Shown: positions 7,609 to 62,914, counted from the stretch's first letter. The stretch: DNA of 64,000 nucleotides from Sphingobacteriales bacterium 16-39-50 (GCA_002257025.1 NCHA01000005.1:62001-126000); one strand, 5' to 3'. Numbers and translations are program-made. Notes: generated by a model from the sequence alone, not told the origin.

Positions 7609-7701
7609 TAAAAAATTATCGAATTATTGCGCCCGGATCAATCTTCTTGGAATGATTTGATCGCATATCTATTTTTTCATTTACAACCTAATTTAAATTC
7701 A

Positions 7702-10700: not shown

Positions 10701-12087
10701 TGGTGCCGAAGTTCAAAAGCCCCTGGCTACAGTCGTCATTGGCGGCTTGATAACATCAACTATTTTAACCTTAATTGTTTTACCAGTGTTATATACATAT
10801 TTCGAAAGTTTCAAAAGCAAAGTGAAGGCAGCTATTCCGACTGCTACTATAGCCATCTTCATCCTCGGCCTCACTTTATTTGCTCCGGCAGCTAAAGCTC
10901 AATTGCCTGTAACAGGCTCTCCACTGACCTTGCAACAGGCTATACAAACAGCCCTTAGAAATAACCAGGCAGTAAAGTCTTCCGGCTTGCAGATAAGCCA
11001 GCAACAGGCATTAAGAGGAAGCTCAATAGATTTGGGTAAGACAAATTTTGATGTTCAATATGGGCAAATTAATGGAATAAAGAAGGATAATAACTTTAGC
11101 GCTTCTCAAAATATCCCGAATCCGGCCTTATTTAAAAGCCAGCAAGGTCTCTATGATGCACAGATCAGGGGTGCGGAAATTGGGTTGGCTGTCACACAAA
11201 ATGACCTGAGTTACCAGGTCAAAAGTACCTACACCCAACTTGCCTATTTCACTGCCCTTCAGCAGTTGTATCTCAGTCAGGACAGTGTTTACAATAGCTT
11301 CTTAAAAGCTGCAGCGCTTCGGTATGAGACAGGGGAAACCAACCTGCTTGAAAAAACTACGGCTGAAACACAGTATAATGAAGTGCGCAATCAAATGAGC
11401 AAAAATCAATCTGACATTTTAGCTTACACCTCTGAATTGAAAAGGCTACTTAACTCTCAGGCACAGATTGAAATTTCAAAGGAACAGTTTGTCCAGGTGA
11501 ATTGGAATAACATTGTGCAAGATAGCCTGATTGCAAGGAATCCCCTCCTTGCTTCATACAGGCAACAGATAGAAATTGCAGACAATTCTATTAGGCTTGA
11601 AAAAGCTCGCTCAGGCCCGGATTTTACTTTAGGTTATTTCAATCAGTCCATTATAGGGAATCAAAGCGTTAAAGGGCAGGATGTTTACTTCAATGGCGGC
11701 AAACGATTCCAGGGTGTAAATGCAGGTATTTCTATCCCACTTTTTTTCAAACCTTTTTCTTCACGGATAAAAGCTGCCCAAATAGGCAGGCAGGTTGCTG
11801 AAAGTCAGTTTAATCTTTTTCAGACTAATCTCCAGGGTCAGTATAACCAGGCATACCAGGAACTGCTGAAAAACTCACGCAGTATTGAATATTACAAAAC
11901 AAGCGCACTGCCAAACGTTAACCTGATCTTAAAGCAATCTCAGATCGCATTCCAAAACGGAGAAATTGGTTATGTGGAATACCTGCAGGGATTGCGGACC
12001 TATTCGGAAATCCGCTTCAATTATCTACAGGCCATTAATCAATATAATCAATCAGTTTATACACTTCAATACCTAATGGGTTTATAA
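7702..12087 (+). CDS. czcA: CzcA-CzcC fusion: heavy-metal RND pump with fused outer-membrane TolC-like part
   Basis: A 1461-residue fusion; ATG 7702 (MLKKIIQFSIQNK) is preferred to an upstream TTG. Residues 1-1040 are an HME-RND proton antiporter with 12 helices. Helix 4 carries DFGLIVDGAVIIVE, the Asp/Asp/Glu set of Co/Zn/Cd-type CzcA pumps. Residues 1043-1066 are a second hydrophobic stretch ending AAKAQ, which looks like an internal signal peptide. From 1067 on is an outer-membrane factor of the CzcC/TolC type (LTLQQAIQTALRNNQAV, ETGETNLLEKTTAETQ). Fused CzcA-CzcC proteins are known in Bacteroidota. The 8-nt gap to czcB and the nearby ATPase show a complete export operon. Confidence 0.92.
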   Translation: MLKKIIQFSIQNKLVIGLFTLALIAWGIYSLRQLPIDAVPDITNNQVQVITLSPSLATQEVERLISYPVEQTMSTIPEIEQVRSISRFGLSVVTIVFHDDVDIYWARQQVNEKLSEAKNNIPGGLGNPEISPISTGLGEIYQYVIHAKPGFEKKFDARELRSIQDWIVRKQLLGTPGIAEVNSFGGLLKQYEIALDPDKLRSFNLSINEVFTALEQNNQNTGGAYIDKKPNAYFIRSEGLVGGLDDINKIVVKNNASGIPVLIRDIATVQIGNSIRYGALTRATPESQGEAVGGIVMMLKGANANNVVGLVKAKIERINKTLPEGVVIEPFLDRSALVDRAMGTVATNLIEGALIVIFVLVLFLGNFRAGLVVASVIPLAMLFAISLMNLFGVSGNLMSLGAIDFGLIVDGAVIIVEATMHTLAGNKLGRAFTQPEMDEQVEQSSVRMMSAAAFGQIIILIVYLPILALVGIEGKMFGPMAQTVSFAILGAFILSLTYVPMVSSLFLSKKVSHKKNFSDRMMDFFQRNYSPLIHAALRKRKLVVISSVALLAISIFLFTRMGGEFIPTLEEGDFAVETRLLTGSSLTQSIDKINQASKILVEKFPEVKEVIGKIGAAEIPTDPMPMEATDLTVILKDKKDWTTTHDREELAELMGKALEDIPGVSFGFSQPIQLRSNELISGVRQDIGIKIFGNDLNELTDISQEIGKIVSTVDGARDLYLEQATGLPQIMVKIDRDRIAQYGLSIETVNQTLNTAFAGQSAGLVYEGEQRYDMVVRLAVQNRQNIDDVKNVYVTAPNGNQIPMGQLADVEFKVGPNQIQREDTQRRIIVGLNVRGRDIASVVEEIQLKINQQIKLPTGYFITYGGQFENLKQATQRLSIAVPVALLLILLLLYFSFGSIKQSILIFSAIPMAAIGGIFALLLRGMPFSISAGVGFIALFGVAVLNGIVLITEFNRLKKLNKYGLNEIVLKGTAIRLRPVLMTATVASLGFLPMALSSAAGAEVQKPLATVVIGGLITSTILTLIVLPVLYTYFESFKSKVKAAIPTATIAIFILGLTLFAPAAKAQLPVTGSPLTLQQAIQTALRNNQAVKSSGLQISQQQALRGSSIDLGKTNFDVQYGQINGIKKDNNFSASQNIPNPALFKSQQGLYDAQIRGAEIGLAVTQNDLSYQVKSTYTQLAYFTALQQLYLSQDSVYNSFLKAAALRYETGETNLLEKTTAETQYNEVRNQMSKNQSDILAYTSELKRLLNSQAQIEISKEQFVQVNWNNIVQDSLIARNPLLASYRQQIEIADNSIRLEKARSGPDFTLGYFNQSIIGNQSVKGQDVYFNGGKRFQGVNAGISIPLFFKPFSSRIKAAQIGRQVAESQFNLFQTNLQGQYNQAYQELLKNSRSIEYYKTSALPNVNLILKQSQIAFQNGEIGYVEYLQGLRTYSEIRFNYLQAINQYNQSVYTLQYLMGL

Positions 12088-26067: not shown

Positions 26068-29000
26068 TTATTTTTTACCTATAATATTTTCTATATCCAG
26101 TACGGACTGATTGTACAGAAAAAGCTCCTGCATGTAATCAGATTTTATCTTAATAGATATTGACATGCTCTGCAGATACTGTAAGTATGCAATCTCACCA
26201 CCTTTAAAACCTTTTTCCGCATTTTGAATAATGAGATCAGCCTGGGCTAAAGCACTTTTTTCATAATAATCAAGCGCACTGTTATGCTTATTGTACTGTT
26301 GTATTAATTGTTGCAGTTCACCCTGTAAATTGGTTTGATGGTATTGGAAATTAGCAGCCGCTATTTGCTCGCTGATCTTAGAAGCATTGATCTTTGCCTT
26401 ATTCCCGCCCGGCAGAATGGGAATTCCAATTCCGATCTGGAAACCCATAAAACGATCTTTGCGGGTAAAATTCTGCGGTATGCCATTTACATTTTGTAGT
26501 CCCTGAAAAGACTGGTTGAAATAACCTGCAGTGAAATCAGGCAGGCGTCTGGCCTGCTGCAGACTGGTTTCACTGCGACGAACATTGATCTCCTGCTCTA
26601 AAAATTTCAGATAGGGATTTTGAGCTATCGCAGAACTGTCTTGTGGTATCTCAAGTGGACGTTTAATCAATAGATCATCAACACTTAACCGTTCTTTGGT
26701 ATTAAGCAGCGTTTGCAGCCGGTTTTGAGCGATCAGGATATCAGCTTGGTTTTGAATGATAGCATTTTTGAGCTCCATCAGCTGGGTTTCGGAGGTTACC
26801 TTTTCCAGCCGGTTACTTTCTCCGGTGCGGTAGCGAAGGTCACTGGCTTTAACAAGGTTACTGTATAAGCTATCCTGATACGTAAAAAGCCTTTCTTTTC
26901 CTCTAAGATACACCAGTTCATAATAGACTGATTTCACCTGTCTTATCAAATCGTTCTCCGTGATAGCAAAAAATCGTTCGCTGCTTTTAATCCGCTGATC
27001 CGCCAATCTGGACTGACTGCTGTAAACTGTAGGGAACTCTGTTTTTTGTGAGATAAGAAAATGATTGTCCTGATTACTGCTGTTGATCTGGCCCTTCTGG
27101 TAGGTGATACTCGTTCTGTCAAGATTGACAGATCCCTTTTTCAGGCTTTTTTGAATATCAATTTCATATATCGCAGCTCGCAGGCTACTGTTATTTTTTA
27201 CGGCTTCGTCAATTGCCTGATCTAACGTAATCTTTCTTCCCGCGATGCTCTGTGCAGAGGAATTTATCGGGAGCAACATCCCCCCGAATAGTAATATCAA
27301 AATAACCGATAAGGCACTGAGTCCTGATTTCACTTCTGCAGATTTCCTTTTACGTTCAAATAAAATATATAAAACAGGCAACACAATTAAGGTTAAAAGG
27401 GTAGCGGTGATCAGTCCGCCGATAACTACCGTGGCTAAAGGCCTTTGCACTTCGGCGCCGGATGAATTGGAAATAGCCATAGGCAAAAATCCTAATGAGG
27501 CTACTGCTGCGGTCATTAATACAGGGCGCAGCCTGCTTTTTGTTCCAGACAATACCCGTTCGTTCACATCGACTATCCCTTCTTTTTTCAAACGATTAAA
27601 TTCTGCGATTAAAACAATCCCGTTTAAAACGGCAACCCCAAACAATGCAATAAAACCAACGCCAGCAGAAATACTGAAAGACATACCGCGGATCAACAAA
27701 GCGAAAACCCCTCCAATAGCGGACAAGGGGATAGCCGTGAAAATAAGCAGGCTCTGAGAGACTGAACGAAATGTAAAGTATAACAATATCAGGATAAGAA
27801 ATAAAGCGACCGGAAGGGCAATTGCAAGCCGTGCATTTGCTGCTTTCAGATTTTCAAATTGTCCGCCATAAGTGGTATAATACCCTGGGGGTAATTTTAA
27901 TTTATTATCCAGCGTTTTTTGAATTTCTTCAACTATACTCTCCACATCACGGTTCCTGACATTGAACCCAATAGTTATCCGGCGCTTGGTATCATCCCGC
28001 TGGATCTGATTGGGTCCGTTGACAAAGTCAACAGCAGCGACCTCTTCCAGGGGCATTTGTTGACCTGTGCGTGTTGTTACATATAAACCCCGGACATCCT
28101 GTAAACTCTGCCGATCATCCTTATCGAGCCGTACAACAAGGTCAAAACGTTTTTCTCCCTCATATACTACACCGGCGGCCTCCCCGGCGAAAGCTGTTTT
28201 AATAGTTCTGTTGATCGCATTAATATTTAACCCATATTGAGCAATCCTGTCGCGGTTATATTTGATCCGGATCTGCGGCAAGCCGGTCACTTCTTCAACA
28301 TAAACATCATTAACACCCTCTACCGGGCTAATTAGCTTTCCGATCTTTGCAGCTTCATTAGTCAGTACATCAAGATCTTCACCATAAATTTTAATCACCA
28401 CATCCTGTTTGGCCCCGGTAATTAATTCATTAAAACGCATTTGAATAGGCTGTTGAAACCCAAAAGTAACACCAGGGATAACTGACAATGCTTCCTGCAT
28501 CTTTTCGGCAAGTTCTTCCCGGGATGAGGCACTTGTCCATTCTTTTTTATCTTTCAGGATGATCATCATATCTCCTGCTTCTATAGGCATCGGATCTGTG
28601 GGAATTTCACCGGATCCGATTTTATTGACCACCTGCTTCACTTCAGGAAACTGAGCCAAAATTATTTTTTGGGCTTTCGTCGAAGCATCAATGATCTGAT
28701 CAATAGAACTTCCGGTTAGTACCCGTGTTTCAACCGCAAAATCACCTTCATCCAATTGAGGAATAAACTCACCGCCTAAACGCGTAAAGGCAAACAGACT
28801 TATCAGGAATAATGCCACGGCAATAACCACCACGCCTGTTTTTTGACGGATAGCGAAATGGATAACCGGAGAATAAGTACGCTGGAAGAAATCCAACATA
28901 CGGTCTGAAAAATTCCTCTTATGAGTGGTATTTTTGCTCAGGCCCAAAGCGGACATCATCGGAACATAGGTAAGCGATAAAATAAATGCCCCTATAATGG

Positions 29001-30459
29001 CAAACATTACGGTTTGAGCCATCGGCCGGAACATCTTACCCTCAATACCTATTAAGGCTAGAAGAGGCAAATACACAATTAATATAATGATCTGTCCAAA
29101 GGCTGCTGAATTCATCATTTTACTGGAGCTTTCATAAACCTGCTGATCCATCTGGCTTTGATCGAGCCGTTTCAGGCCCACATGATGATGCTTACTCATA
29201 CTGATCCGGTGCAGCACACTCTCTACAATAATGACAGCGCCATCCACAATCAAACCAAAGTCTATTGCTCCCAAACTCATCAGGTTCCCTGATACACCAA
29301 AAAAATTCATCATCGAAATGGCGAAAAGCATAGACAAGGGGATAACTGAAGCGACCACCAAACCCGCCCTGAGGTTTCCAAGAAACAGTATCAGGATAAA
29401 GATAACGATCAAAGCGCCTTCTACCAGATTGGTTAAGACGGTACTGATGGCATTGTCGACCAATTTTTTACGGTCCAGGAAAGGTTCAATATCCACCCCT
29501 TCGGGAAGTGTCTTTTTAATTTGCTCGATCCTGGCTTTAACGGCATTTATAACTTCGGAGGAATTGGCTCCTTTGAGCATCATCACGATCCCGGTCACGA
29601 CCTCTCCTTCCCCGTTTCGGGTTGCCGCACCATAGCGCACACTATTCCCGAATTGCACTTTAGCCACATCCCTGATCAAAACAGGTGTTACATTATCTGT
29701 TTCAATAACGATCTTTTCAATATCTTCAACAGTTTCAATTAGCCCCTCACTCCGGATGAAATAGGCATTGGGAGACTTATTGATATAAGCTCCGCCTGTA
29801 TTCTGATTATTGGTTTCCAGCGCATCGAAAATATCTGATATGCTGACATTTAAACTACGCAGCCTATCAGGATTTACGGCGATTTCATATTGTTTGACAT
29901 ATCCCCCAAAACCGCTTACTTCTGCCACTCCAGGCGTGCCCAGAAGCTGCCGCTTAATGATCCAATCCTGGATGGTACGAAGCTCCATTGGAGTATATTT
30001 CTTTTCATAGCCTTTCTTAGGGTGGATGACATATTGGTAGATTTCGCCCAAACCTGTTGTAACCGGAGCCATTTCCGGCTCGCCTACACCTTCAGGTATT
30101 TGTTTGGCCGCCTCTCCAAGCCGTTCGTTAATCTGTTGGCGGGCCCAGTAGATGTCGACATCCTCATTGAACACGACTGTTACAAGCGATAAACCGAAGC
30201 GCGAAAAAGACCTGATTTGTTTAATTCCGGGGATGCTCGCCATGGTTTGTTCGACCGGAAAGGTTATCAATCTTTCAACTTCCTGAGCGGCTAAAGTAGG
30301 AGTGACAGTAATGACCATCACCTGATTATCCGTAATGTCAGGTACTGCGTCAATGGGAAGTTTTGTTAAGGAATAGGCACCCCAACCTATTAATGCTAGG
30401 GTGAATAATCCGATAAGCAGTTTATTTTTTATCGAAAAGAGAATAATCTTATTTAACAT
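26068..30459 (-). CDS. czcA: CzcA-CzcC fusion RND pump (second copy)
   Basis: A 1463-residue protein with the same domain order as the copy at 7702-12087. Residues 1-1040 are HME-RND with DFGLIVDGAVIIVE in helix 4, followed by a hydrophobic segment ending NSSAQ near 1073, then a TolC/CzcC-like half (ITLDQAIDEAVKNNSSL, RTGESNRLEKVTSETQ). The two fusions are similar but clearly diverged, so they are old paralogs, not a recent copy. A His-containing small exported protein gene precedes it by about 200 nt. Remains of a third copy lie upstream (31919-32195). Confidence 0.92.
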   Translation of the reverse strand: MLNKIILFSIKNKLLIGLFTLALIGWGAYSLTKLPIDAVPDITDNQVMVITVTPTLAAQEVERLITFPVEQTMASIPGIKQIRSFSRFGLSLVTVVFNEDVDIYWARQQINERLGEAAKQIPEGVGEPEMAPVTTGLGEIYQYVIHPKKGYEKKYTPMELRTIQDWIIKRQLLGTPGVAEVSGFGGYVKQYEIAVNPDRLRSLNVSISDIFDALETNNQNTGGAYINKSPNAYFIRSEGLIETVEDIEKIVIETDNVTPVLIRDVAKVQFGNSVRYGAATRNGEGEVVTGIVMMLKGANSSEVINAVKARIEQIKKTLPEGVDIEPFLDRKKLVDNAISTVLTNLVEGALIVIFILILFLGNLRAGLVVASVIPLSMLFAISMMNFFGVSGNLMSLGAIDFGLIVDGAVIIVESVLHRISMSKHHHVGLKRLDQSQMDQQVYESSSKMMNSAAFGQIIILIVYLPLLALIGIEGKMFRPMAQTVMFAIIGAFILSLTYVPMMSALGLSKNTTHKRNFSDRMLDFFQRTYSPVIHFAIRQKTGVVVIAVALFLISLFAFTRLGGEFIPQLDEGDFAVETRVLTGSSIDQIIDASTKAQKIILAQFPEVKQVVNKIGSGEIPTDPMPIEAGDMMIILKDKKEWTSASSREELAEKMQEALSVIPGVTFGFQQPIQMRFNELITGAKQDVVIKIYGEDLDVLTNEAAKIGKLISPVEGVNDVYVEEVTGLPQIRIKYNRDRIAQYGLNINAINRTIKTAFAGEAAGVVYEGEKRFDLVVRLDKDDRQSLQDVRGLYVTTRTGQQMPLEEVAAVDFVNGPNQIQRDDTKRRITIGFNVRNRDVESIVEEIQKTLDNKLKLPPGYYTTYGGQFENLKAANARLAIALPVALFLILILLYFTFRSVSQSLLIFTAIPLSAIGGVFALLIRGMSFSISAGVGFIALFGVAVLNGIVLIAEFNRLKKEGIVDVNERVLSGTKSRLRPVLMTAAVASLGFLPMAISNSSGAEVQRPLATVVIGGLITATLLTLIVLPVLYILFERKRKSAEVKSGLSALSVILILLFGGMLLPINSSAQSIAGRKITLDQAIDEAVKNNSSLRAAIYEIDIQKSLKKGSVNLDRTSITYQKGQINSSNQDNHFLISQKTEFPTVYSSQSRLADQRIKSSERFFAITENDLIRQVKSVYYELVYLRGKERLFTYQDSLYSNLVKASDLRYRTGESNRLEKVTSETQLMELKNAIIQNQADILIAQNRLQTLLNTKERLSVDDLLIKRPLEIPQDSSAIAQNPYLKFLEQEINVRRSETSLQQARRLPDFTAGYFNQSFQGLQNVNGIPQNFTRKDRFMGFQIGIGIPILPGGNKAKINASKISEQIAAANFQYHQTNLQGELQQLIQQYNKHNSALDYYEKSALAQADLIIQNAEKGFKGGEIAYLQYLQSMSISIKIKSDYMQELFLYNQSVLDIENIIGKK

Positions 30460-47991: not shown

Positions 47992-48315
47992 ATGAAAACC
48001 ATTCCTCAATTTTTGAAGGCAGCTTTGGCTGCCTTTTTTATTGCATTACCTTTTTTTTGCTCTGCTCAACAACCACCTGGTATAAATGAATTCTACCGGG
48101 TAAGCGGCGAAATGCACCGCTGGTATTTCAGTCTGTCCGATCTGGTTTTGGTGGTCGGTGCGATCAGCGGAATACTTGGATGTCTGAGAATCTATACCAA
48201 CTGGCAATCCGGCAAACATCATCACATAGATGCCCAGGTTATGGGCTGGTTCTTTTCCTGCCTTTTCCTAACGTTGATCGGTGTTTTTCTCAGAGCTCTA
48301 TTCAGGGTCAATTAA
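47992..48315 (+). CDS. DUF4134 (TraE-like) membrane protein, divergent copy
   Basis: A 107-residue protein with a signal-like first helix ending CSAQQ and two more helices (SDLVLVVGAISGILGCLRIY and VMGWFFSCLFLTLIGVFLRA). The pattern matches the next gene, a DUF4134 protein, but is more divergent. Two helices with a short cytoplasmic loop resemble VirB2/VirB3-sized pilin-like proteins. It lies 51 nt after the TraD-like gene. Confidence 0.65.
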   Translation: MKTIPQFLKAALAAFFIALPFFCSAQQPPGINEFYRVSGEMHRWYFSLSDLVLVVGAISGILGCLRIYTNWQSGKHHHIDAQVMGWFFSCLFLTLIGVFLRALFRVN

Positions 48316-48354: not shown

Positions 48355-48669
48355 ATGACAAGTAAAACTCAAAAACTGTTATCATTTGCTGCGCTGTTTA
48401 CTGTAGCAGTACAAACCGCCATGGCTCAAGGAGGCGGCGGCACAACCGGAATCAATGCAGCAACATCTTCGCTGACAAGTTACATAGATCCAGTATCAAC
48501 ATTAACCCTTGCGATTGGGGCGGTAGTTGGAATCATAGGAGGTGTACGCGTATACATCAAATGGAATTCCGGCGATAACGACATCAACAAAGAACTTATG
48601 GGCTGGGGAGGATCGTGCCTCTTCCTGGTTTTGGTGTCGGTGGTCATTAAGGCATTTTTTGGTGTTTGA
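48355..48669 (+). CDS. traE: TraE (DUF4134) membrane protein
   Basis: A 104-residue protein with a signal peptide (LFTVAVQTAMAQ) and two helices: PVSTLTLAIGAVVGIIGGVR and MGWGGSCLFLVLVSVVIKAF. This is DUF4134, TraE in CTnDOT, probably a pilin-like subunit (VirB2 equivalent). Its TGA overlaps the ATG of traF. It is the second of a tandem pair. Confidence 0.85.
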   Translation: MTSKTQKLLSFAALFTVAVQTAMAQGGGGTTGINAATSSLTSYIDPVSTLTLAIGAVVGIIGGVRVYIKWNSGDNDINKELMGWGGSCLFLVLVSVVIKAFFGV

Positions 48670-48977
48670 TGATTCGCAAATTTTCCATATACAAGGGGCT
48701 GCAGAAGCCTCTTGTATATAAGGGATTTAAAGGAAAGTTTATTGCCTGGGGAATCGGGTCCCTCGCTTTGGGTTTGGTATCAGGGGGATTATTGGGTGCC
48801 CTGACCAATATGTATCTGGGTGGGATAGTTACAATACTATCCATTGCCGGAGGACTTTCCTATACCTTTTTCCAGCAGAAGAACGGCTTGCATTCAAAAA
48901 CCCACCACAAAGGAGTCTTTATACATCCCATTAATTTAAAAATAAATTATGCAAACACATCAAAAGACCGCATTTAG
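48669..48977 (+). CDS. traF: TraF (DUF4133) membrane protein
   Basis: A 102-residue protein from ATG 48669 in the TGATG junction. It opens FSIYKGLQKPLVYKGFKGKF followed by two helices. DUF4133/TraF is the VirB3 counterpart and is encoded just before the VirB4 ATPase, as here. It overlaps traG by 29 nt. Confidence 0.85.
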   Translation: MIRKFSIYKGLQKPLVYKGFKGKFIAWGIGSLALGLVSGGLLGALTNMYLGGIVTILSIAGGLSYTFFQQKNGLHSKTHHKGVFIHPINLKINYANTSKDRI

Positions 48978-51444
48978 AATACCCTATGCCGGTATTGATC
49001 CTGATGATGGTCATGCTGTACTGTACGGGGAAAGAGGTGATTTCTCAATGATCTTTCAGATTCGGAATTCTGTTTTGCATTACGGTGCAGATCCTGATGC
49101 CTATTCAGCTTACCACCACCTGTTGCTCAACATCATCAAAATCCTGGGTGAAGGGTATATCATACAGAAGCAAGATGTATTCTCCCGCCAAAAATATCAG
49201 CCTAAGCCTGCTACGGAATTTCTACAACAGAAATACAATGAACATTTTGAAGGAAGGGAGTACACCAGCATCAGCACCTATCTTATTCTGACACGCCAGG
49301 TTAAAAGAGGGGCATTTTATGTATACGATAAAAAAGTGCTGAATGATTTTCATCAGCATCGGGGCAAGATATATGACCTGTTGAACGGTTCAGGCTTAAG
49401 CCCTCATCTTTTAGATGAAACGGAGATCAATCGCTATATCACCGCTATCCTGGGCATGGAGTTTTCATCAGGACACGCTGCCCTGGATAATATAAGAGCT
49501 GGAGATCAGCAACTGGAGATTGGTACAAGGGCGTTACGTAATATCAGCCTGATCAATACAGATTCGATTGACCTGCCGGAAAAGCTGGGCACATATATTG
49601 AAAAGCATGACGGGAAGAACCTTCGGGAATTCCCGGTTGATAACCTTTCATTTCTGCATCAAGTTCCCGGCTATCAGTGCATCGTTTATAATCAGGTGAT
49701 TGAGATTCCCGGACAACAGCTTACACTGAATAAACTGGAATTAAAACGTAAACGACATTCCGGAGTACCGGATCCTGCTAACCTGATTTGTGTGGAGGAT
49801 ATTGATCAGCTCCTTGTCGATGTGGCCAGGGAGAATCAGTTGCTGGTAAATGCTCATTATAATATTATAGTTTGCGCAGAGGCTTCCAAAATCAGCAAGG
49901 CCGCCAATTTTATTGAAGCAGCACTTTTCCAGCAAGGTATCATCCCTTCGCGGAATGCCTACAACCAACTGGAGCTTTTTCGCTCTGCTCTTCCCGGCAA
50001 TGCAGTAGAATTGAAAAAATACGACTGGTTTTTGACGACATCAGATGCGGCCCTGTGCTTTTTTTTCAAAGAATCGATGCTAACCGATGAGGATTCAGAT
50101 TTTCTAATTCGCTTCACCGACCGCCAGGGAATTCCGGTAGGCATAGACCCTGCGGATCTGCCGATGCGTACGGGCCGAATTAATAATCGTTCAAAATTTG
50201 TTCTGGGTGGCAGTGGCAGCGGAAAATCTTTTTTTATGTGCGCACTCCTTGAACAATATATGCTTTACAATATGGATGTGGTTATTGTCGATGTAGGTCA
50301 TTCATATTCCGGTTTGTGTGCCTACTTCGGTGGTAAATATTACACTTATACTGAAAAGAACCCAATCACGATGAATCCGTTCTCGATCAGCGAAAGTGAA
50401 TATAACATTGAGAAAAAAGATTTTTTAAAAACCTTGATAGGGTTGCTTCTTAAAGGAGCCGAAGGCTCAATCTCGCAGATAGAAGATACCATATTTTCGA
50501 ATGTGATCTCCGCTTATTATTCTGACTACTTTATGCCGGAATCTGAAAATAAAACAGATGCTCTAAATTTTGATTCCTTTTATAATTATTCGGTAGAGAA
50601 GATTAGAGAGATTAAAGATCATGAAAAGGTCAGTTTTGACCTTGATGAATACCGTTATGTTTTAAAGAAATTTTGCAGAGGCGGTGAATACGGATCGCTC
50701 TTAAATGAAACCTCTGATGTTTCCGTATTTACTGAAAGGTTTATCGTCTACGAAATAGATTCCATCAAAGAGAATAAGGTTTTATTTCCCATAGTGACCC
50801 TGATCATTATGGATGTGGTTTTACAGAAGATGCGCCACCGCACAGGACAACGTAAAGCCCTGATCCTTGAAGAAGCCTGGAAAGCTATTGCATCACCCTT
50901 AATGGCAGGGTACATTCTTTATTTATATAAAACCATGCGCAAATTCTGGGGGGAACCTATTGTGGTCACCCAGGAGCTTGGAGATATTTTGGGTAATGCG
51001 GTGGTCAAAGACAGTATCCTGAATAACTCTGATTCCATTTGCCTGCTGGATCAAAGCAAGTTCAAGGAGAATTACGATGATATCGCAAAACTGCTTTCAT
51101 TAACACCAATTGAACAGAAAAAGATCTTCACCATTAATCAACTTGACAACAAGGAAGGTCGTGGAAAATTTAAGGAAGTGTATATCCGCAGGGGATCAAG
51201 CGGCGAAGTTTATGGTGTGGAAGTCTCGCTATTTCAATACTTGACTTATACCACCGAAAAGCCGGAAAAAAATGCCGTTGAAACCTACATGAGGGCTTAC
51301 GGATCTTACCAGGCAGGGTTGGAAGCTTTTGTTTCCGATCTGGAGCGAAGCAGCTTGAAGCTTGAAACATTTGTCCGAAAAGTTAATCTGGAAGGGATAC
51401 TCCCAGTTGGTTCTTTAGAATATTTTAAACCTGATTTTATATGA
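48949..51444 (+). CDS. traG: TraG, VirB4-type conjugation ATPase
   Basis: An 831-residue ATPase that powers the mating-pair apparatus. Walker A is GGSGSGKSFFM (near 420), Walker B is KALILEEAW (near 640), and an ASCE arginine/glutamine region follows (VVTQELGDILGN). The N-terminal half fits the VirB4 family. Its stop overlaps the following gene (ATGA). In Bacteroidota this gene is called traG although it is not the coupling protein. Confidence 0.93.
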   Translation: MQTHQKTAFRIPYAGIDPDDGHAVLYGERGDFSMIFQIRNSVLHYGADPDAYSAYHHLLLNIIKILGEGYIIQKQDVFSRQKYQPKPATEFLQQKYNEHFEGREYTSISTYLILTRQVKRGAFYVYDKKVLNDFHQHRGKIYDLLNGSGLSPHLLDETEINRYITAILGMEFSSGHAALDNIRAGDQQLEIGTRALRNISLINTDSIDLPEKLGTYIEKHDGKNLREFPVDNLSFLHQVPGYQCIVYNQVIEIPGQQLTLNKLELKRKRHSGVPDPANLICVEDIDQLLVDVARENQLLVNAHYNIIVCAEASKISKAANFIEAALFQQGIIPSRNAYNQLELFRSALPGNAVELKKYDWFLTTSDAALCFFFKESMLTDEDSDFLIRFTDRQGIPVGIDPADLPMRTGRINNRSKFVLGGSGSGKSFFMCALLEQYMLYNMDVVIVDVGHSYSGLCAYFGGKYYTYTEKNPITMNPFSISESEYNIEKKDFLKTLIGLLLKGAEGSISQIEDTIFSNVISAYYSDYFMPESENKTDALNFDSFYNYSVEKIREIKDHEKVSFDLDEYRYVLKKFCRGGEYGSLLNETSDVSVFTERFIVYEIDSIKENKVLFPIVTLIIMDVVLQKMRHRTGQRKALILEEAWKAIASPLMAGYILYLYKTMRKFWGEPIVVTQELGDILGNAVVKDSILNNSDSICLLDQSKFKENYDDIAKLLSLTPIEQKKIFTINQLDNKEGRGKFKEVYIRRGSSGEVYGVEVSLFQYLTYTTEKPEKNAVETYMRAYGSYQAGLEAFVSDLERSSLKLETFVRKVNLEGILPVGSLEYFKPDFI

Positions 51445-52100
51445 AAAAGCTAATCTCAATTTTAGGGTTTTGCCTGCTGGTTTTGCCGGGTTTTACCCAG
51501 ATCTACATCGATCCGGCGACAGCCGGTGCAACGGCAGCCCATTCAGGAATCATTAATGGCCAGCTTAATAAAACCAACGATAATCTGACCTTGATACAAC
51601 GCGGACAACTGGCGGTAACAGGGCAACTGGTAATAGTAAACGACTTGCAAAACCAGATCTATAAAGGTTTGAGTGAGGTATCGGGCGTAGTCCGATCATT
51701 ACTTGCGGTAAAGGATATTACCGAAATCAGTATTGACATAGTGGAAGATGTAAACAAGGCGGTCACTATTGCCCAAAGCAATCCTGCGCTGTTGCTATTT
51801 GCGGAAGGGGGTGCTAGGGAGTTTAAAACACGGGCTACCAACCTGGCGGCAGAGGTCAGTTCATTTGTATTACAAGGCGGTAAGAGTAACCTCATGGATT
51901 CGGGAGAACGGGCAAAACTGTTGAACAGGATCGTTAATGAATTGATGATCTTACGGGGTGTGGCCTACGGTATGTACCGCTCCATGTACTGGGCAAAACA
52001 GCGTGGGATACTAAATTCTCTGAACCCCTATGCGGGGTATATCAATATCGATAAACAGATCGCTGATGATATTATCCGAAATGCCAAATACCTGAAGTAA
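51441..52100 (+). CDS. Exported conjugation protein, first of four related genes (TraI-position)
   Basis: A 219-residue protein with a signal peptide ending GFTQI. A helical body (TNDNLTLIQRGQLAVTGQLV) follows, with a C-terminal motif NIDKQIADDII that recurs in the next genes. It sits in the place of TraI (DUF4141) in CTnDOT, a VirB5-like position. Its TAATG junction couples it to the next gene. Role in the apparatus is inferred. Confidence 0.6.
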   Translation: MKKLISILGFCLLVLPGFTQIYIDPATAGATAAHSGIINGQLNKTNDNLTLIQRGQLAVTGQLVIVNDLQNQIYKGLSEVSGVVRSLLAVKDITEISIDIVEDVNKAVTIAQSNPALLLFAEGGAREFKTRATNLAAEVSSFVLQGGKSNLMDSGERAKLLNRIVNELMILRGVAYGMYRSMYWAKQRGILNSLNPYAGYINIDKQIADDIIRNAKYLK

Positions 52101-52759
52101 TGAAATATTTTATTCTCTTCTTGATCTTGTTGGGCATAGTGTCTGAAGGATCAGCCCAGATAAATGTACAACTCTTGCATCAGTTAGTGGCCGAAAGCAA
52201 ATCAGAGCATAGCAAACAAGAGGAAGCTAGAAATAAACAAGCCATTACATCTGCAAATGAAGAAGTGAACCGTTCTCAAATGAGCAAGCTTAAAACCAAA
52301 TACCGCGAATTGCAGAGCCGCTTCCAAACGCTCGGATTGGCAATAGATGCTACACAGATTGGATTACAAGCTGCGCCTGTTATAACAGAAATCATCCAGC
52401 AGCAAAACCTTATTTTCCAGCAAGCAGGTAACGACCCATTATTGATATTGCTTGCCTATAACGCTGAAATGGACATGGCTGATCAGGCATATTTACTAAG
52501 TAACTACTTGTACGGACTGGCAATAAGTTTCGGTGATCTAAACCAGATGAAATCCAGCGACCGCAAAATACTGTTCAGCCATGTTTTGACAGAATTGCGT
52601 AGGATCGCCGGGGCATCGAGAGGGTTGGCAGCAACGATGTACTACGCCAGCAGGAAAAAAGCACTTCAATCTATAAACCCCTTTGCAGACTTTATCAATG
52701 AGGATAAACGATTAGTTAATGACATCCTGCGAAAAGTCGATCTTCTTAAAAACCCCTGA
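52100..52759 (+). CDS. Exported conjugation protein, second paralog
   Basis: A 219-residue protein with signal peptide (LGIVSEGSAQI). The body is shorter on glycine than its neighbour and has a coiled region (KQEEARNKQAITSANEEVNR). The C-terminus repeats the motif as NEDKRLVNDIL. The Arg/Tyr-rich stretch RGLAATMYYASRKKAL matches the RSMYWAKQRGIL stretch of the first paralog. Start overlaps the previous stop (TAATG). Confidence 0.6.
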   Translation: MKYFILFLILLGIVSEGSAQINVQLLHQLVAESKSEHSKQEEARNKQAITSANEEVNRSQMSKLKTKYRELQSRFQTLGLAIDATQIGLQAAPVITEIIQQQNLIFQQAGNDPLLILLAYNAEMDMADQAYLLSNYLYGLAISFGDLNQMKSSDRKILFSHVLTELRRIAGASRGLAATMYYASRKKALQSINPFADFINEDKRLVNDILRKVDLLKNP

Positions 52760-52763
52760 TCTC

Positions 52764-53429
52764 ATGAAACACATTCTCTTTTTACTTTTAATATCGACGG
52801 GCTGGTTAACTGGGCTTGCCCAAGTTGTGGTTTTTGATCCCAGGCACTTTGCCACAGTCAATGAAAACGGGGTAGCTCGTCTTATGGCCGAAAACACGCA
52901 CAATAACTATCTTAATACGATCAATAACAGGCTGGATGATATTAACCTTAATATCTCTTCAGTAGTGATGGTACAAACGCTCATCCGTAACTCTCTAACT
53001 CAAGTAAACCAGGCGCTAAAAAGCGGTTTAACAGTTTTGCAGATCGGTCAGATCTCTTACGAAATCATCAAGGAAAGTAGTAATATGATCGCTATAGCAA
53101 GGACGGATCCTGTGTTGCTTTTGTTTGCTGAAGATGTTGCCCGGCAAATGAAATCACGCGGCGTTAACCTGGTCAGTGAGGTATCTGGCTTCATCTTAAA
53201 AGAAGGTGATAATGTTCTGATGGATTTTGAAAAGCGAGATGCGCTTCTCCGCAAAGTTATCCTGGAGCTAAGGGTAATGCGGGCTTTATGTTACAGTATG
53301 AGTCGATCCATGTACTGGGCAAAAGTGAATGGGGTGCTGAAAACAGCTAATCCATACCGTGATTTTATCAACCAGGATACCAGACTGGTAAATGACATCC
53401 TGTTTAAATATAGCCTCCTAAAAAAATAA
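52764..53429 (+). CDS. Exported conjugation protein, third paralog
   Basis: A 221-residue protein from ATG 52764; the longer in-frame start at 52719 is inside the previous gene. It has a signal peptide (ISTGWLTGLAQV). The body is close to the first paralog (VMVQTLIRNSLTQVNQALK, SRSMYWAKVNGVLK), and the C-terminus is NQDTRLVNDIL. The three paralogs likely arose by duplication and may form one multi-subunit part. Confidence 0.6.
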   Translation: MKHILFLLLISTGWLTGLAQVVVFDPRHFATVNENGVARLMAENTHNNYLNTINNRLDDINLNISSVVMVQTLIRNSLTQVNQALKSGLTVLQIGQISYEIIKESSNMIAIARTDPVLLLFAEDVARQMKSRGVNLVSEVSGFILKEGDNVLMDFEKRDALLRKVILELRVMRALCYSMSRSMYWAKVNGVLKTANPYRDFINQDTRLVNDILFKYSLLKK

Positions 53430-53431
53430 CG

Positions 53432-54214
53432 ATGAAAACAATACAACTATTAATCCTGCTCCTCTTCTTAGGTTGCAGGTCCACTTTCGCACAAATGGTG
53501 ATTAATGATGAATCTATCCGGTATCAGCAAGAGCGCATGGTGTTTAAACAATGGGACAAGGATAAGTTTACTCCAAAACCTGGTTTTTTAGGTCTTAATC
53601 CCTTTTACTGGCTAACATGGGCCTGGCATCCTGATTACAAGAAAAAAGATCTGCGTCCCTTGGGACCAATAGGACCACAAACACAACGCCTGATCTTTGT
53701 TGCTGCCATGCAAAACACGGAGAATGCTTATAAATTACAAGCAGACACTTTACGAAATACGGCAGTCACCGAAGCAGTCAACTATTCCGGCATAACCTCT
53801 GCTGCCGATCCATTATGGTTGTTGTACTATCGGCATGAATTCGATCCTCTAATAAATCAACAGGATGACGAATTACTAAACGGCCTTACCCAAAAAGAGA
53901 AGGATTACCTGAATCGTAGCGGAGTATTGAGCTGGTACCTGGAAGAAAGTCAAGCTTTAAATGAACGGCTAGATGCCGCACGTAATACAACTGTAGATAG
54001 AGGATCCCGCATGTTAGCTTATTATCGCCTCCTGGCCGAATACCGCAAGCTGGCTGCAGCATGGGATACCAAGAAGCAAAATGCAAAACTATATCTTTCT
54101 CTAGCGGAGTCAGCAGATAAAGTTAAAGGTCAGAGCGTCCTGATTGAGAAGAATACTGGGTACAGAACGGATAAACAGATCGCAGATGATGTACTGAACA
54201 AATCCAAACTTTAA
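53432..54214 (+). CDS. Exported conjugation protein, fourth member with shared C-terminal motif
   Basis: A 260-residue protein with signal peptide (LLFLGCRSTFAQM). The N-terminal 90 residues are aromatic-rich (GLNPFYWLTWAWHPDYKK) and differ from its neighbours, but the end TDKQIADDVLNKSKL repeats the C-terminal motif. It is 2 nt after the third paralog. It could be the membrane-proximal partner of the group. No domain is named. Confidence 0.55.
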   Translation: MKTIQLLILLLFLGCRSTFAQMVINDESIRYQQERMVFKQWDKDKFTPKPGFLGLNPFYWLTWAWHPDYKKKDLRPLGPIGPQTQRLIFVAAMQNTENAYKLQADTLRNTAVTEAVNYSGITSAADPLWLLYYRHEFDPLINQQDDELLNGLTQKEKDYLNRSGVLSWYLEESQALNERLDAARNTTVDRGSRMLAYYRLLAEYRKLAAAWDTKKQNAKLYLSLAESADKVKGQSVLIEKNTGYRTDKQIADDVLNKSKL

Positions 54215-54224
54215 ACGAATAGCT

Positions 54225-55367
54225 ATGACAACTATCCAAATGATAACCGGCCTCGCCGGTTTTTTTGTGCAGGGTCAACCCGTTAATGTCCCGGACTCTT
54301 TCAAGGATACATTTAATTTTCTACAAGGGAATGGAGTATATGAGGAAGGAACAATGCACTTTTTAAAACAGATGAAGAACACCATCTGGACGCATTACGA
54401 TGCTTTCGTTGCAGATGCACAGGCACTGTCAGCCATCTTTATGCTCATTTTCTTTGCTATTAAGTCGTATGAGATGATGTCGGGCGACAAAAAGCTAGAG
54501 ATTATGCCGCTTTTACGGCCTTTCGGCCTGGTAATGGTCATTCTCTGGTGGTCGACTTTTACCAGGGTGGTTGCTTTTCCGACTGATGTGATTGCCAATA
54601 AAACCGAAGCCGTGTTTGACGGCAGCCAGAGAGCAGTGAATGACCTTCGCCTTCAACGTGCCAAGCTCATGGTAGAAGTTTCTGATCAGTTGCTCACCGT
54701 ACAAGCCCAAACTGAAACAGCCAAAAAGGAGGCAGATACCTGGTATGAGAATGCTTGGGAATCCGTCCAGTCTTCAGTAAAGGAAGGATTTTCCGAAGTT
54801 TGGAACCCGATTGTCGAAATGCGCAACCGTTTACAGGTCGGTCTTCAACTGCTTGCAACTTCCTTACTGGAAACAATTGCTTTGTGGTTCTTGCGCATAT
54901 GCGTCTATGTGATCTTTATTATACAAATCATCTTTTCAACGATTTTGATCATTCTCGGACCTTTTTCAGTGGCGATCAGTATTCTGCCTGCTTTTCGGGA
55001 TTCGTTTGGTACATGGGTGGCACGCTTTATATCTGTCAATCTGTACTCTGGCATTGCGTATTTGGTAATGTATGTTGCTTCCCTTTTTCAGCAATATGCT
55101 ATGGAAGCAGAGATTACCCGTTACCAAGAGCTAGTTGGTACATCTGGAGCAAGCATGGAGAAACTTAGTGTGTTTGCAGGAAATGGTGTCCTCTCTTTTG
55201 GGATAGTTATCGGAACATTTATCATCGGGGCACTGACCATGCTTACCGTTCCCAGTATATCCACATGGATTGTTTCCACCTCTGGTATTACCTCCGCTGC
55301 TTCTTCAATGGGTAGAGGAGCATCCAATATGTCCCGCATGATGACCCGCATGATCACTAAAGCATAA
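54225..55367 (+). CDS. traJ: TraJ, VirB6-like membrane channel protein
   Basis: A 380-residue polytopic membrane protein with about six helices (AIFMLIFFAIKSYEMM, TIALWFLRICVYVIFIIQ, GILSTILIILGPFSVAIS-like block near 240-260). TraJ of Bacteroidota elements is the VirB6 equivalent in the inner-membrane channel. The C-terminus is rich in Ser, Met and Arg (GRGASNMSRMMTRM). It precedes traK by 66 nt. Confidence 0.83.
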   Translation: MTTIQMITGLAGFFVQGQPVNVPDSFKDTFNFLQGNGVYEEGTMHFLKQMKNTIWTHYDAFVADAQALSAIFMLIFFAIKSYEMMSGDKKLEIMPLLRPFGLVMVILWWSTFTRVVAFPTDVIANKTEAVFDGSQRAVNDLRLQRAKLMVEVSDQLLTVQAQTETAKKEADTWYENAWESVQSSVKEGFSEVWNPIVEMRNRLQVGLQLLATSLLETIALWFLRICVYVIFIIQIIFSTILIILGPFSVAISILPAFRDSFGTWVARFISVNLYSGIAYLVMYVASLFQQYAMEAEITRYQELVGTSGASMEKLSVFAGNGVLSFGIVIGTFIIGALTMLTVPSISTWIVSTSGITSAASSMGRGASNMSRMMTRMITKA

Positions 55368-58533: not shown

Positions 58534-58749
58534 TTAACCGCAGCAGGATGTTCCCTGCTGGATAGGCGGACATTTAACCGTTCCATAGCTGCAAAACACA
58601 CAGCAATCGCCCGTAAACGGCTTTAAGCGTGCCTTACAGCTTTCACATTCATAAAAGTACTGACAGGCATCGATCGGCATTTCTTCCTCTTTTTGAAAGC
58701 CGCAATTGGGACAGGTAATTACAGAATTTAGCAGGATTGCTGTTGCCAT
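58534..58749 (-). CDS. Small Cys-rich protein of mercury clusters (GDCCVFCSYG)
   Basis: A 71-residue zinc-ribbon-like protein: CPNC and CESC pairs in the first half, then GDCCVFCSYGTVKCPPIQ. The GDCC-x-C-SYG-x-CPP signature occurs in small proteins next to merTP genes. It may bind metal in the cytosol. It lies 4 nt after merTP and 16 nt from the convergent traN stop. Confidence 0.72.
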   Translation of the reverse strand: MATAILLNSVITCPNCGFQKEEEMPIDACQYFYECESCKARLKPFTGDCCVFCSYGTVKCPPIQQGTSCCG

Positions 58750-58753
58750 ACGA

Positions 58754-59356
58754 TTAATTTTTTTTGATTAAAGTGGGTTGGTATCCTATTTCTTTTATCT
58801 TATGATTGATGCTATCGGCATTTGTCTTAGCCGGATCATAGCGTACGATCGTTTCTGACTTTTCAAAGGATGTGCGGGAAGTTGCAACACCGTTAATCTC
58901 CAGCAGAGATCCATCAATATGTTTGGTACAATCCGCACAGCTCATACCTTTAATATTCCATTTGACGTAGCTGAATCTCGCTTGGCTAATAGCTGCGGCT
59001 GATGGCTGAGGGGTTCTATAAAACAAGGAAGAGTAATAAGGAAAGGCAATCAGCATTCCTGAACACAGCGTGACGATCAGTAAGAACTTTTTAGACTGCC
59101 AGAACGAACGCTTTTCCGGTTCGCAGCAATCCACTTGCTGTTCCTGCCTGGTAGCCAGTTGCTGGTACCAGATTATCGCAAAGACCAGAATAGTCAGGCC
59201 AATCATATAAGGGCGAAAGGGTTCCATCCAGTTAAAATAAGTGGCAGCACCGCTTATTCCGCCAAAGACGGCCAGCAAGGGTGCAATACAACAAAGAGAT
59301 GCAGCTATTGCTGCAAGTATTCCACTTATCCAGCTTTTTTGAATTGCATTTTTCAT
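58754..59356 (-). CDS. merT: MerTP fusion, mercuric ion transport protein
   Basis: A 200-residue protein from ATG 59356. Three helices make the MerT part (AASLCCIAPLLAVFGG with its Cys pair, near 19-34). A Cys pair (DCCEPEK) lies between helices, and a C-terminal HMA domain of MerP type carries GMSCADCTKHI (near 139-149). It takes Hg(II) from the periplasm. No merA reductase is in the window, so the fate of the mercury is not shown. It overlaps the regulator's stop (ATGA). Confidence 0.88.
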   Translation of the reverse strand: MKNAIQKSWISGILAAIAASLCCIAPLLAVFGGISGAATYFNWMEPFRPYMIGLTILVFAIIWYQQLATRQEQQVDCCEPEKRSFWQSKKFLLIVTLCSGMLIAFPYYSSLFYRTPQPSAAAISQARFSYVKWNIKGMSCADCTKHIDGSLLEINGVATSRTSFEKSETIVRYDPAKTNADSINHKIKEIGYQPTLIKKN

Positions 59357-59721
59357 ACTCGTATTGTTGCTGATTGATTTTTTATGATACTGAATAAAGG
59401 TTTGAGCAGATGTAACTGGGATGGGCAAACTGAATAGAATATCGTCTGACCGGACTTTCGCGATTGTATGACGCTGCCATTTTTCAATTTATGAAGGTGC
59501 TGTGAAATAGCTGGAATCTTCATTTCCAGAATATCGCTTAAATCACAGGGGCACAATTCATGTTCCTGATCTAAAAGGAAAAGTATTTTTAATCGTACCT
59601 CATTTCCGGCTAAAGCTACAACCTGGGAAAGTTCAGAAAAAGATTGCTGGTTTTCTTTTATGATTTCCCTGCAATTATTGATCTGGCTTAAATCAGCAAA
59701 AATCCTCTTACATGCGCTCAT
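59353..59721 (-). CDS. ArsR/SmtB-family metal regulator of merTP
   Basis: A 122-residue winged-helix repressor from ATG 59721 (MSACKRIFADL). ELCPCDLS (near 69-76) is the Cys pair of ArsR/CadC metal sites, followed by the recognition helix MKIPAISQHLHKLKN. It takes the place usually held by MerR. An 8-bp inverted repeat (59748-59769) and a TATCTTTG box lie upstream. It is in one operon with merTP. Confidence 0.87.
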   Translation of the reverse strand: MSACKRIFADLSQINNCREIIKENQQSFSELSQVVALAGNEVRLKILFLLDQEHELCPCDLSDILEMKIPAISQHLHKLKNGSVIQSRKSGQTIFYSVCPSQLHLLKPLFSIIKNQSATIRV

Positions 59722-59737
59722 ATCAAATATCAAGTTA

Positions 59738-61908: not shown

Positions 61909-62008
61909 GTCTTTGCCGGCTTAAGATCCCCCACTCATTTTTCACTTAAAAATTAAATTTATGGAAGAACGGCGAAGCCCTCCTTCCAACCTTAAAAAAC
62001 AAATTATC

Positions 62009-62437
62009 ATGGAAGAATTAATTGGTACTGTAGTTCTGGTTCACCCGGAACTTATGAATGATCCTGTGAACCGTCAGGGTCAGGTTGGCATTGTTGCCAC
62101 AGCAGATCTTGGACAAGATGAAGTATTTGTGGGTTTTGGCAAAGGGCCATTAGGTCTGTACTCGGTAGATGCATTGCTTGCATTAAAACCACACAATGAA
62201 ATCTATAAAGACCTGCTCACCCACGTTCAGGAACTGGATCCGCAGGATTTTAAAGCCATGTTGCGCATCAGTATGCTCCTGGAAGCTGGTTCACCCAAAC
62301 AGATTAAAGATGCAATGGAACTAGCTATGACCAGCTACCAGACTTTATCTCACTGCACAATACCCTTACAAGATAAACTGAATCCAGTCAGGGAACAAAA
62401 CCAGATTGAAGAGCGGGACTATGCCCACACTCGTTAA
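62009..62437 (+). CDS. Uncharacterised element protein, tandem paralog A
   Basis: A 142-residue protein from ATG 62009 (MEELIGTVVLVHPELM). The start is chosen because the paralog at 62486 begins MDELVDKEVMVHPNLT at the same place. The N-terminal 65 residues look like an SH3-like barrel (RQGQVGIVATADLGQDEVFV), ending GLYSVDALLALKP; the rest is helical. No function is known. It follows the coupling-protein gene. Confidence 0.6.
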   Translation: MEELIGTVVLVHPELMNDPVNRQGQVGIVATADLGQDEVFVGFGKGPLGLYSVDALLALKPHNEIYKDLLTHVQELDPQDFKAMLRISMLLEAGSPKQIKDAMELAMTSYQTLSHCTIPLQDKLNPVREQNQIEERDYAHTR

Positions 62438-62485: not shown

Positions 62486-62914
62486 ATGGATGAATTGGTA
62501 GATAAAGAGGTTATGGTACATCCCAACCTGACCCAGGATCCTGCTACCAGGCAGGGTCAAACGGGAACGATTACAAATGTCGTGCACGAGAATGATGAGG
62601 TATTTGTGCGTTTTGGCGATAATAGTATAGGCCTATACAGCTCTGATGCGCTACTCTTATTAAAGCCAGCATCTTTAATACTGGAAAGCCTTCGCTCCGC
62701 TATTTATGGAATAGATTATCTGGATAGTAAGGATATCGTGGGAATTCTTGACGTCTATGCACTGCAAGCTTCAGGTCAGATAAAAGAAGCATTGGAACTT
62801 GCTATCAGTAATGAAACTGTGCGTATCGCTTCCATAGTATTCGTAGATGACTGGATCGACCGTGGCTATTCAGATCAACAAGACCGTGGTCAAAGTCCAA
62901 ATATAAGCCGATGA
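62486..62914 (+). CDS. Uncharacterised element protein, tandem paralog B
   Basis: A 142-residue protein, same length as its neighbour and clearly related: HPNLTQDPATRQGQTGTITN, then DEVFVRFGDNSIGLYSSDAL and LLLLKP. The C-terminal tails differ. It ends in an ATGA overlap with the M23 peptidase gene. A role in transfer or establishment is inferred from position. Confidence 0.6.
   Translation: MDELVDKEVMVHPNLTQDPATRQGQTGTITNVVHENDEVFVRFGDNSIGLYSSDALLLLKPASLILESLRSAIYGIDYLDSKDIVGILDVYALQASGQIKEALELAISNETVRIASIVFVDDWIDRGYSDQQDRGQSPNISR

Follow-up and report, generated by a model that had tools for sequence, protein, structure and literature searches.

The window analysed here, a stretch of 64,000 nucleotides from Sphingobacteriales bacterium 16-39-50, is part of a 321-kb contig; the relatives of its genome are Sphingobacteriaceae. 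The locus encodes a Bacteroidota conjugation type IV secretion system of the CTnDOT / MPF-B type, with the genes arranged in the order traG, P1, P2, P3, P4, traJ, traK, a small gene, traM and traN. Matches to TIGR03783, TIGR03781, TIGR03779 and TIGR03780 were above the cut-off in this operon. The genes abut or nearly so, with an overlap of 4 bases between the traG stop and the P1 start and of 1 base between the P1 stop and the P2 start. Four consecutive reading frames for exported proteins lie between traG and traJ, at the positions given in the initial annotation; their signal peptides were judged by eye. The features of the block and its flanks are as follows.

48949..51444, + strand: traG, VirB4-type ATPase (TIGR03783, E 4e-144), upstream flank of the P1–P4 block
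51441..52100, + strand: P1, first TraI-like exported helical protein, 219 aa; the first gene of the block in all complete four-gene loci
52047..52097, + strand: P1 tail helix IDKQIADDIIRNAKYLK, class 1, modelled as a separate helix
52100..52759, + strand: P2, second TraI-like exported protein, 219 aa
52700..52756, + strand: P2 tail EDKRLVNDILRKVDLLKNP, class 2
52764..53429, + strand: P3, third TraI-like exported protein, 221 aa (the mechanical reading frame begins at 52719, the signal peptide at the ATG at 52764)
53373..53426, + strand: P3 tail QDTRLVNDILFKYSLLKK, class 2
53432..54214, + strand: P4, exported protein, 260 aa, with a conserved N-terminal segment and a helical C-terminal domain; body without detectable homology to P1–P3
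54131..54169, + strand: P4 linker preceding the tail, variable and unstructured
54167..54211, + strand: P4 tail TDKQIADDVLNKSKL, class 1, co-varying with the P1 tail
54225..55367, + strand: traJ, polytopic membrane protein in the virB6 position (TIGR03782, E 9e-21, below the cut-off), downstream flank
54318..54344, + strand: FLQGNGVYE motif in the N-terminal extension of TraJ, noted on inspection of 23 TraJ sequences; a lead for a docking site

The initial annotation had described three of the proteins as clear paralogs and the fourth as different outside its tail, which agrees with profile comparisons. P1, P2 and P3 matched one another with profile-profile probabilities of 99.7–100%, whereas the body of P4, once its tail was removed, aligned with the P1–P3 profiles over the signal peptide only. 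In a tree of tail-less bodies from 43 divergent loci, P1, P2 and P3 were each monophyletic (supports 0.95, 0.64 and 0.84, respectively). This perfect separation indicates that the paralogs arose before these systems diverged and before the tail co-variation described below. Searches of P1–P4 against Pfam, NCBIfam and PHROGs gave no meaningful match, sequence searches against the PDB returned nothing usable, and a scan of IMG/VR gave no relative. The best PDB profile match, phosphopantetheine adenylyltransferase (E 0.0014), covered a short stretch and was judged spurious.

The block is a fixed unit. The order traG-P1-P2-P3-P4-traJ was invariant in the first 8 loci of relatives, and P4 was preceded by three TraI-like genes at 133 non-redundant loci. 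Relatives of P1 in named genomes numbered 241, and the best 80 of these belonged to Sphingobacteriaceae (Pedobacter, Sphingobacterium, Mucilaginibacter, Parapedobacter and others) and to a few metagenome-assembled genomes; of the named relatives, the nearest to carry an identical P1 was Daejeonella sp. JGW-45. P4 was present in 92 of 301 Sphingobacteriaceae genomes and in 74 of 247 genomes of a second family, taken as that of Chryseobacterium (Weeksellaceae). In a sample of 395 genomes across the phylum Bacteroidota, 50 of them with TraK, the traG–traJ interval held one CTnDOT-type TraI, three TraI paralogs or the four-gene block, with a few other arrangements. Our literature search found the four-gene block nowhere described. 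CTnDOT-like islands are reported in Mucilaginibacter, and the portion of that report available to us does not mention the P1–P4 genes (PMC6316836).

All four C-terminal motifs quoted in the initial annotation were present as quoted; however, they are near-terminal rather than terminal, with 5 to 9 residues following (e.g., IDKQIADDII-RNAKYLK). The tail Asp was conserved in 523 of 532 proteins, so that the tail is kept among orthologs and the absence of conservation that had been named as grounds for refutation was not borne out. In P1–P3 the tail is conserved, yet no more than the remainder of the protein. The P4 orthologs showed a distinct profile: the linker carried ~1 bit per column, after which the tail was well conserved again (Asp 4.0, Ile 3.2 and Ala 3.0 bits). 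In 76 of 80 orthologous loci, a matrix built solely from the P1–P3 tails matched P4 best within its last 25 residues, and in 67 of the 80 the P4 score was above the 99th percentile of shuffled P4s. For P4 of the window the score was 24.7 bits, compared with 6.6 bits at the shuffle 99th percentile.

AlphaFold models of P1 and P4, made from alignments of 54 and 57 sequences, were of moderate confidence (pLDDT 73 and 72, respectively) and all-helical. The P1 tail was modelled as a separate helix at residues 198–214, after an NPY break. The P4 model comprised a confident domain at ~131–230, no secondary structure at 234–246 and an isolated helix at 247–257. As modelled, the P4 tail is a conserved island behind a variable, unstructured linker, as in a short docking motif. 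Foldseek searches of the PDB with these two moderate-confidence models found no significant match, either to VirB5 or to any other fold.

Two classes of co-varying tail can be distinguished, one in P1 and P4 and the other in P2 and P3. Across 133 loci, core identity of the P1 and P4 tails was 0.570 within a locus versus 0.426 between loci, and that of the P2 and P3 tails was 0.477 versus 0.424. The differences were retained when each cluster was reduced to one representative. For P1–P4 the values were 0.571 versus 0.404 with 29 divergent representatives and 0.597 versus 0.428 with 8 deep-cluster representatives (p < 2e-4 in both cases); for P2–P3 they were 0.517 versus 0.419 (29 representatives, p < 2e-4) and 0.556 versus 0.408 (8 representatives, p = 0.0004). 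The P1 and P2 tails, which served as an internal control, had no within-locus effect (p = 0.37 with 29 and p = 0.70 with 8 representatives). Consequently, shared ancestry and composition alone do not account for the pairwise co-variation. Within-locus effects for P1–P3, P2–P4 and P3–P4 were weak.

The co-variation is visible at a single position. The residue after the conserved Ile was the same in P1 and P4 in 86% of loci versus 47% between loci, and it shifted jointly, as A/A, M/M, L/L, V/V or F/F. Most Sphingobacteriaceae had A/A, a divergent group had M/M and L/L, and other loci had F/F and V/V; few independent deep changes lie behind the co-variation. In Weeksellaceae alone (42 loci), P1–P4 co-variation was not significant (p = 0.79), whereas P2–P3 co-variation was (p = 0.002). 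The P1–P4 signal therefore arises from differences between clades and from within Sphingobacteriaceae.

The counterpart of P1–P3 in Bacteroides conjugative transposons is the CTnDOT-type TraI (DUF4141, PF13605), which likewise lies between traG and traJ and has a signal peptide. It aligned with the P1–P3 profile at 93–96% probability in hhalign, signal peptide included. The TraI-like profile recovered CTnDOT-type TraI in genome searches (E ~1e-7 to 2e-4, profile positions 1–170) and located it adjoining TraK in single-gene systems. In the reverse direction, P1–P3 gave no match to PF13605 at E ≤ 1, while CTnDOT-type TraI as positive control gave 2e-20. The CTnDOT-type system differs in having TraI in single copy and no P4. 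The initial annotation had regarded the shared tail as a feature not seen in the single-gene TraI of CTnDOT. The P1–P4 motif is indeed absent there, but CTnDOT-type TraI has a conserved tail of its own, RAKKxNDxxRVLxLYG, which is unlike that of P1–P4 and is absent from P1–P3. With the paralogs of three-gene systems it shares the common form RAKxxxDxxxVxxxYG. The contrast is therefore between different tails and not between a tail and none.

The first 65–80 residues of CTnDOT-type TraI also resembled VirB5 (E 3e-6) and TrbJ (1e-5 and 1e-4), all below the cut-off, whereas P1–P4 had no direct match to the VirB5 and TrbJ models. Like the VirB5/TrbJ minor pilins (R388 TrwJ, pKM101 TraC, A. tumefaciens VirB5), P1–P3 are exported helical proteins encoded in the virB4-virB5-virB6 position; they differ in being present in three copies with P4 added. 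Our reading of the literature on VirB5/TrbJ found no report of a shared C-terminal tag. The VirB5 pentamer of R388 rests on a pentamer of VirB6, with each VirB5 subunit placed between two of VirB6 (PMC9259494). Taken together, the TraI match to VirB5/TrbJ, the virB4-virB5-virB6 gene order and the R388 arrangement lead us to read P1–P3 as probable VirB5-type proteins and their tails as putative addressing helices.

The suggestion that the tail may be a docking signal gains from its conservation in orthologs, from the P4 model, where it stands as a separate helix after an unstructured linker, and from its co-variation between non-homologous proteins, all of which are as expected of a docking element. 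The further idea of docking to one channel part appears too simple, since there are two co-varying tail classes. We propose that P1, P2 and P3 may be three VirB5/TraI-type periplasmic subunits of the secretion system, that P4 would be a fourth exported subunit of different build, and that each would end in a short helix serving as an address tag. With one version of the tag on P1 and P4 and another on P2 and P3, a single stalk or channel would offer at least two kinds of docking site, and these would most plausibly lie around TraJ in the virB6 position or between neighbouring subunits. P4 could then occupy a P1-type site by means of its flexible linker, its distinct N-terminal part doing another job. 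As a whole, this explanation, in which the tails seat P1–P4 at two or more kinds of docking site, has in our judgement an even chance of being right. A two-code addressing system is offered more tentatively: two helix classes, carried by VirB5-type subunits and an unrelated partner, might set the places of these proteins in a hetero-oligomeric stalk or tip and co-evolve with docking sites on TraJ or on neighbouring subunits.

The main rival is assembly through the helices themselves, each binding another tail or an adjacent subunit rather than a separate receptor, within a hetero-oligomer in which P1 pairs with P4 and P2 with P3. Pairwise co-variation of similar tails would be in keeping with such packing, and a helix with a hydrophobic face suits bundling (hydrophobic moment p = 0.03 for the P1 tail and p = 0.05 for the P2 tail); however, the amphipathicity of the P3 and P4 tails was not significant (p = 0.41 and 0.34, respectively), and we regard tail–tail assembly as rather unlikely, though a serious competitor. 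Common descent alone, with P4 a very diverged fourth TraI paralog whose tail is its best-kept remnant and has no docking function, appears less probable still. It draws on the weak alignment of the last 72 columns of the P1–P3 and P4 profiles (71% probability, tail included) and on a collinear DxGxR...E...L helix before the tail. However, signal peptides alone align when the tail is removed, the tail is retained next to a variable linker, and the parallel changes that P1 and P4 underwent once separated are not accounted for by descent alone.

Gene conversion between the tail-coding ends would homogenise P1 with P4 and P2 with P3, and in the window the DKQIADD codons of P1 and P4 are identical at 20 of 21 bases, the sole difference being synonymous. 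Across 80 loci, however, codon identity at identical residues was no higher for P1–P4 (0.497) and P2–P3 (0.496) than for P1–P2 (0.509) and P1–P3 (0.495); this equality across pairs is evidence against conversion, which we disfavour as very improbable. Equally remote is the reading in which the tail serves exported proteins in general as a signal for sorting or quality control rather than as a docking element of the machine. The C-terminus of an exported protein is a frequent place for sorting signals, but the other reading frames of ~140 related loci held no convincing near-end copy of the tail, with one marginal match, and a search of the window's own genome with the P1 tail gave P1 and P2 only, at a low sensitivity that also missed P3 and P4. 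The existence of two pair-specific versions also argues against one general receptor.

As to the partner of the proposed address tags, TraJ may be the candidate receptor, on the strength of a hint from coupling between alignment columns. Tail columns coupled slightly more to TraJ than body columns did (mutual information, p = 0.0017), a weak and unlocalised signal from ~39 effective sequences that may reflect clade structure; against TraK, tail columns had no excess coupling (p = 0.25). The likening of TraJ to VirB6 is based on its position and topology, with no match to a VirB6 model. A further hint is an N-terminal FLQGxGVYE-like segment of TraJ, present in four-gene systems and absent from the examined one-, two- and three-gene systems and from Persicobacter.

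Related plasmid systems offer a comparison for P4, on the understanding that their P4-like genes are linked to P4 by weak homology, or else by their position and a resemblance at the N-terminus. Plasmids of the pBF9343-like Bacteroides group and of Pontibacter/Adhaeribacter resemble this block in the order traG, TraI-like, P4-like, traJ; they differ in that a single TraI-like gene stands there and the P4-like protein is shorter and lacks the tail. A Persicobacter plasmid encodes four TraI-like proteins and a P4-like protein, all with a common tail of their own (DxRxxIA...), in a block relocated behind the coupling-protein gene, and the P4-like tail was closest to that of the first TraI-like gene. 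In these examples, a P4-type tail seems to be present where TraI-like genes are multiplied and absent where there is one, as far as the weak P4-like homology allows.

Bacteroidota conjugation systems disseminate resistance genes in gut and soil bacteria, and no structure of their stalk and tip was found. The matched tail pairs in a conserved block suggest that the VirB5-type part of the machine is hetero-oligomeric and offers two or more kinds of seat. The tails are short, defined peptides suitable for finding a receptor and give a concrete, testable hint on the assembly of a poorly studied conjugation machine, and thereby a route to the architecture of these systems. If the address-tag explanation is true, a secretion machine can recruit an unrelated protein by a shared tag.

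Multiplied subunits have a precedent in the Trw system of Bartonella, reported to have several copies of both VirB5 and VirB2 (Seubert et al. 2003, cited in PMC12857230). VirB5-type genes would likewise be multiplied here. The copies here differ in being ancient and fixed in number and order, and in being joined by a non-homologous protein that shares their tail. The system described here also has two TraE (DUF4134) genes, found in the window and in 58 of 66 related loci.

The two TraE genes of the window lie in tandem:
47992-48315 and 48355-48669, tandem TraE genes (DUF4134, pilin candidates)
TraE was found in two copies in 58 of 66 loci carrying the four-gene block (P1 to P4), and in one copy in single-TraI loci. 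The doubling of TraE together with the multiplied TraI genes here parallels Bartonella Trw. Another tandem pair of paralogs follows the coupling-protein gene:
61961-62437 and 62486-62914, tandem paralogs

TraI-like genes also occur outside their usual position. The Persicobacter plasmid (L167) has its TraI-like/P4-like block relocated behind the coupling-protein gene, with the common tail retained despite the relocation. pBF9343 (L161) has a second TraI-like gene, whose tail is similar, at a distance from the transfer operon; this gene adjoins a gene for a topoisomerase-repeat protein, with an HU gene close by.
L167 14401-26715, relocated TraI-like/P4-like block
L161 17008-17712, second TraI-like gene of pBF9343

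Within the four-gene block, an additional reading frame separates P1 from P2 in two Mucilaginibacter loci:
L053 4142-4663 (strand coordinates), additional reading frame
L052 4152-4850 (strand coordinates), additional reading frame
P4 is displaced in L120, L122, L127, L145 and L151, which suggests more insertions in the block of these five loci.

Elsewhere in the window, mercuric transport and regulator genes occupy the interval between traN and the coupling-protein gene, inside the transfer region, and two proteins join a TolC-like outer-membrane domain to an efflux pump in one chain:
58534-59733, minus strand, MerTP mercuric transport fusion, ArsR-type regulator and small Cys-rich ORF
7627-12087 and 26068-30459, two fusions of a CusA/CzcA efflux pump with a TolC-like outer-membrane domain
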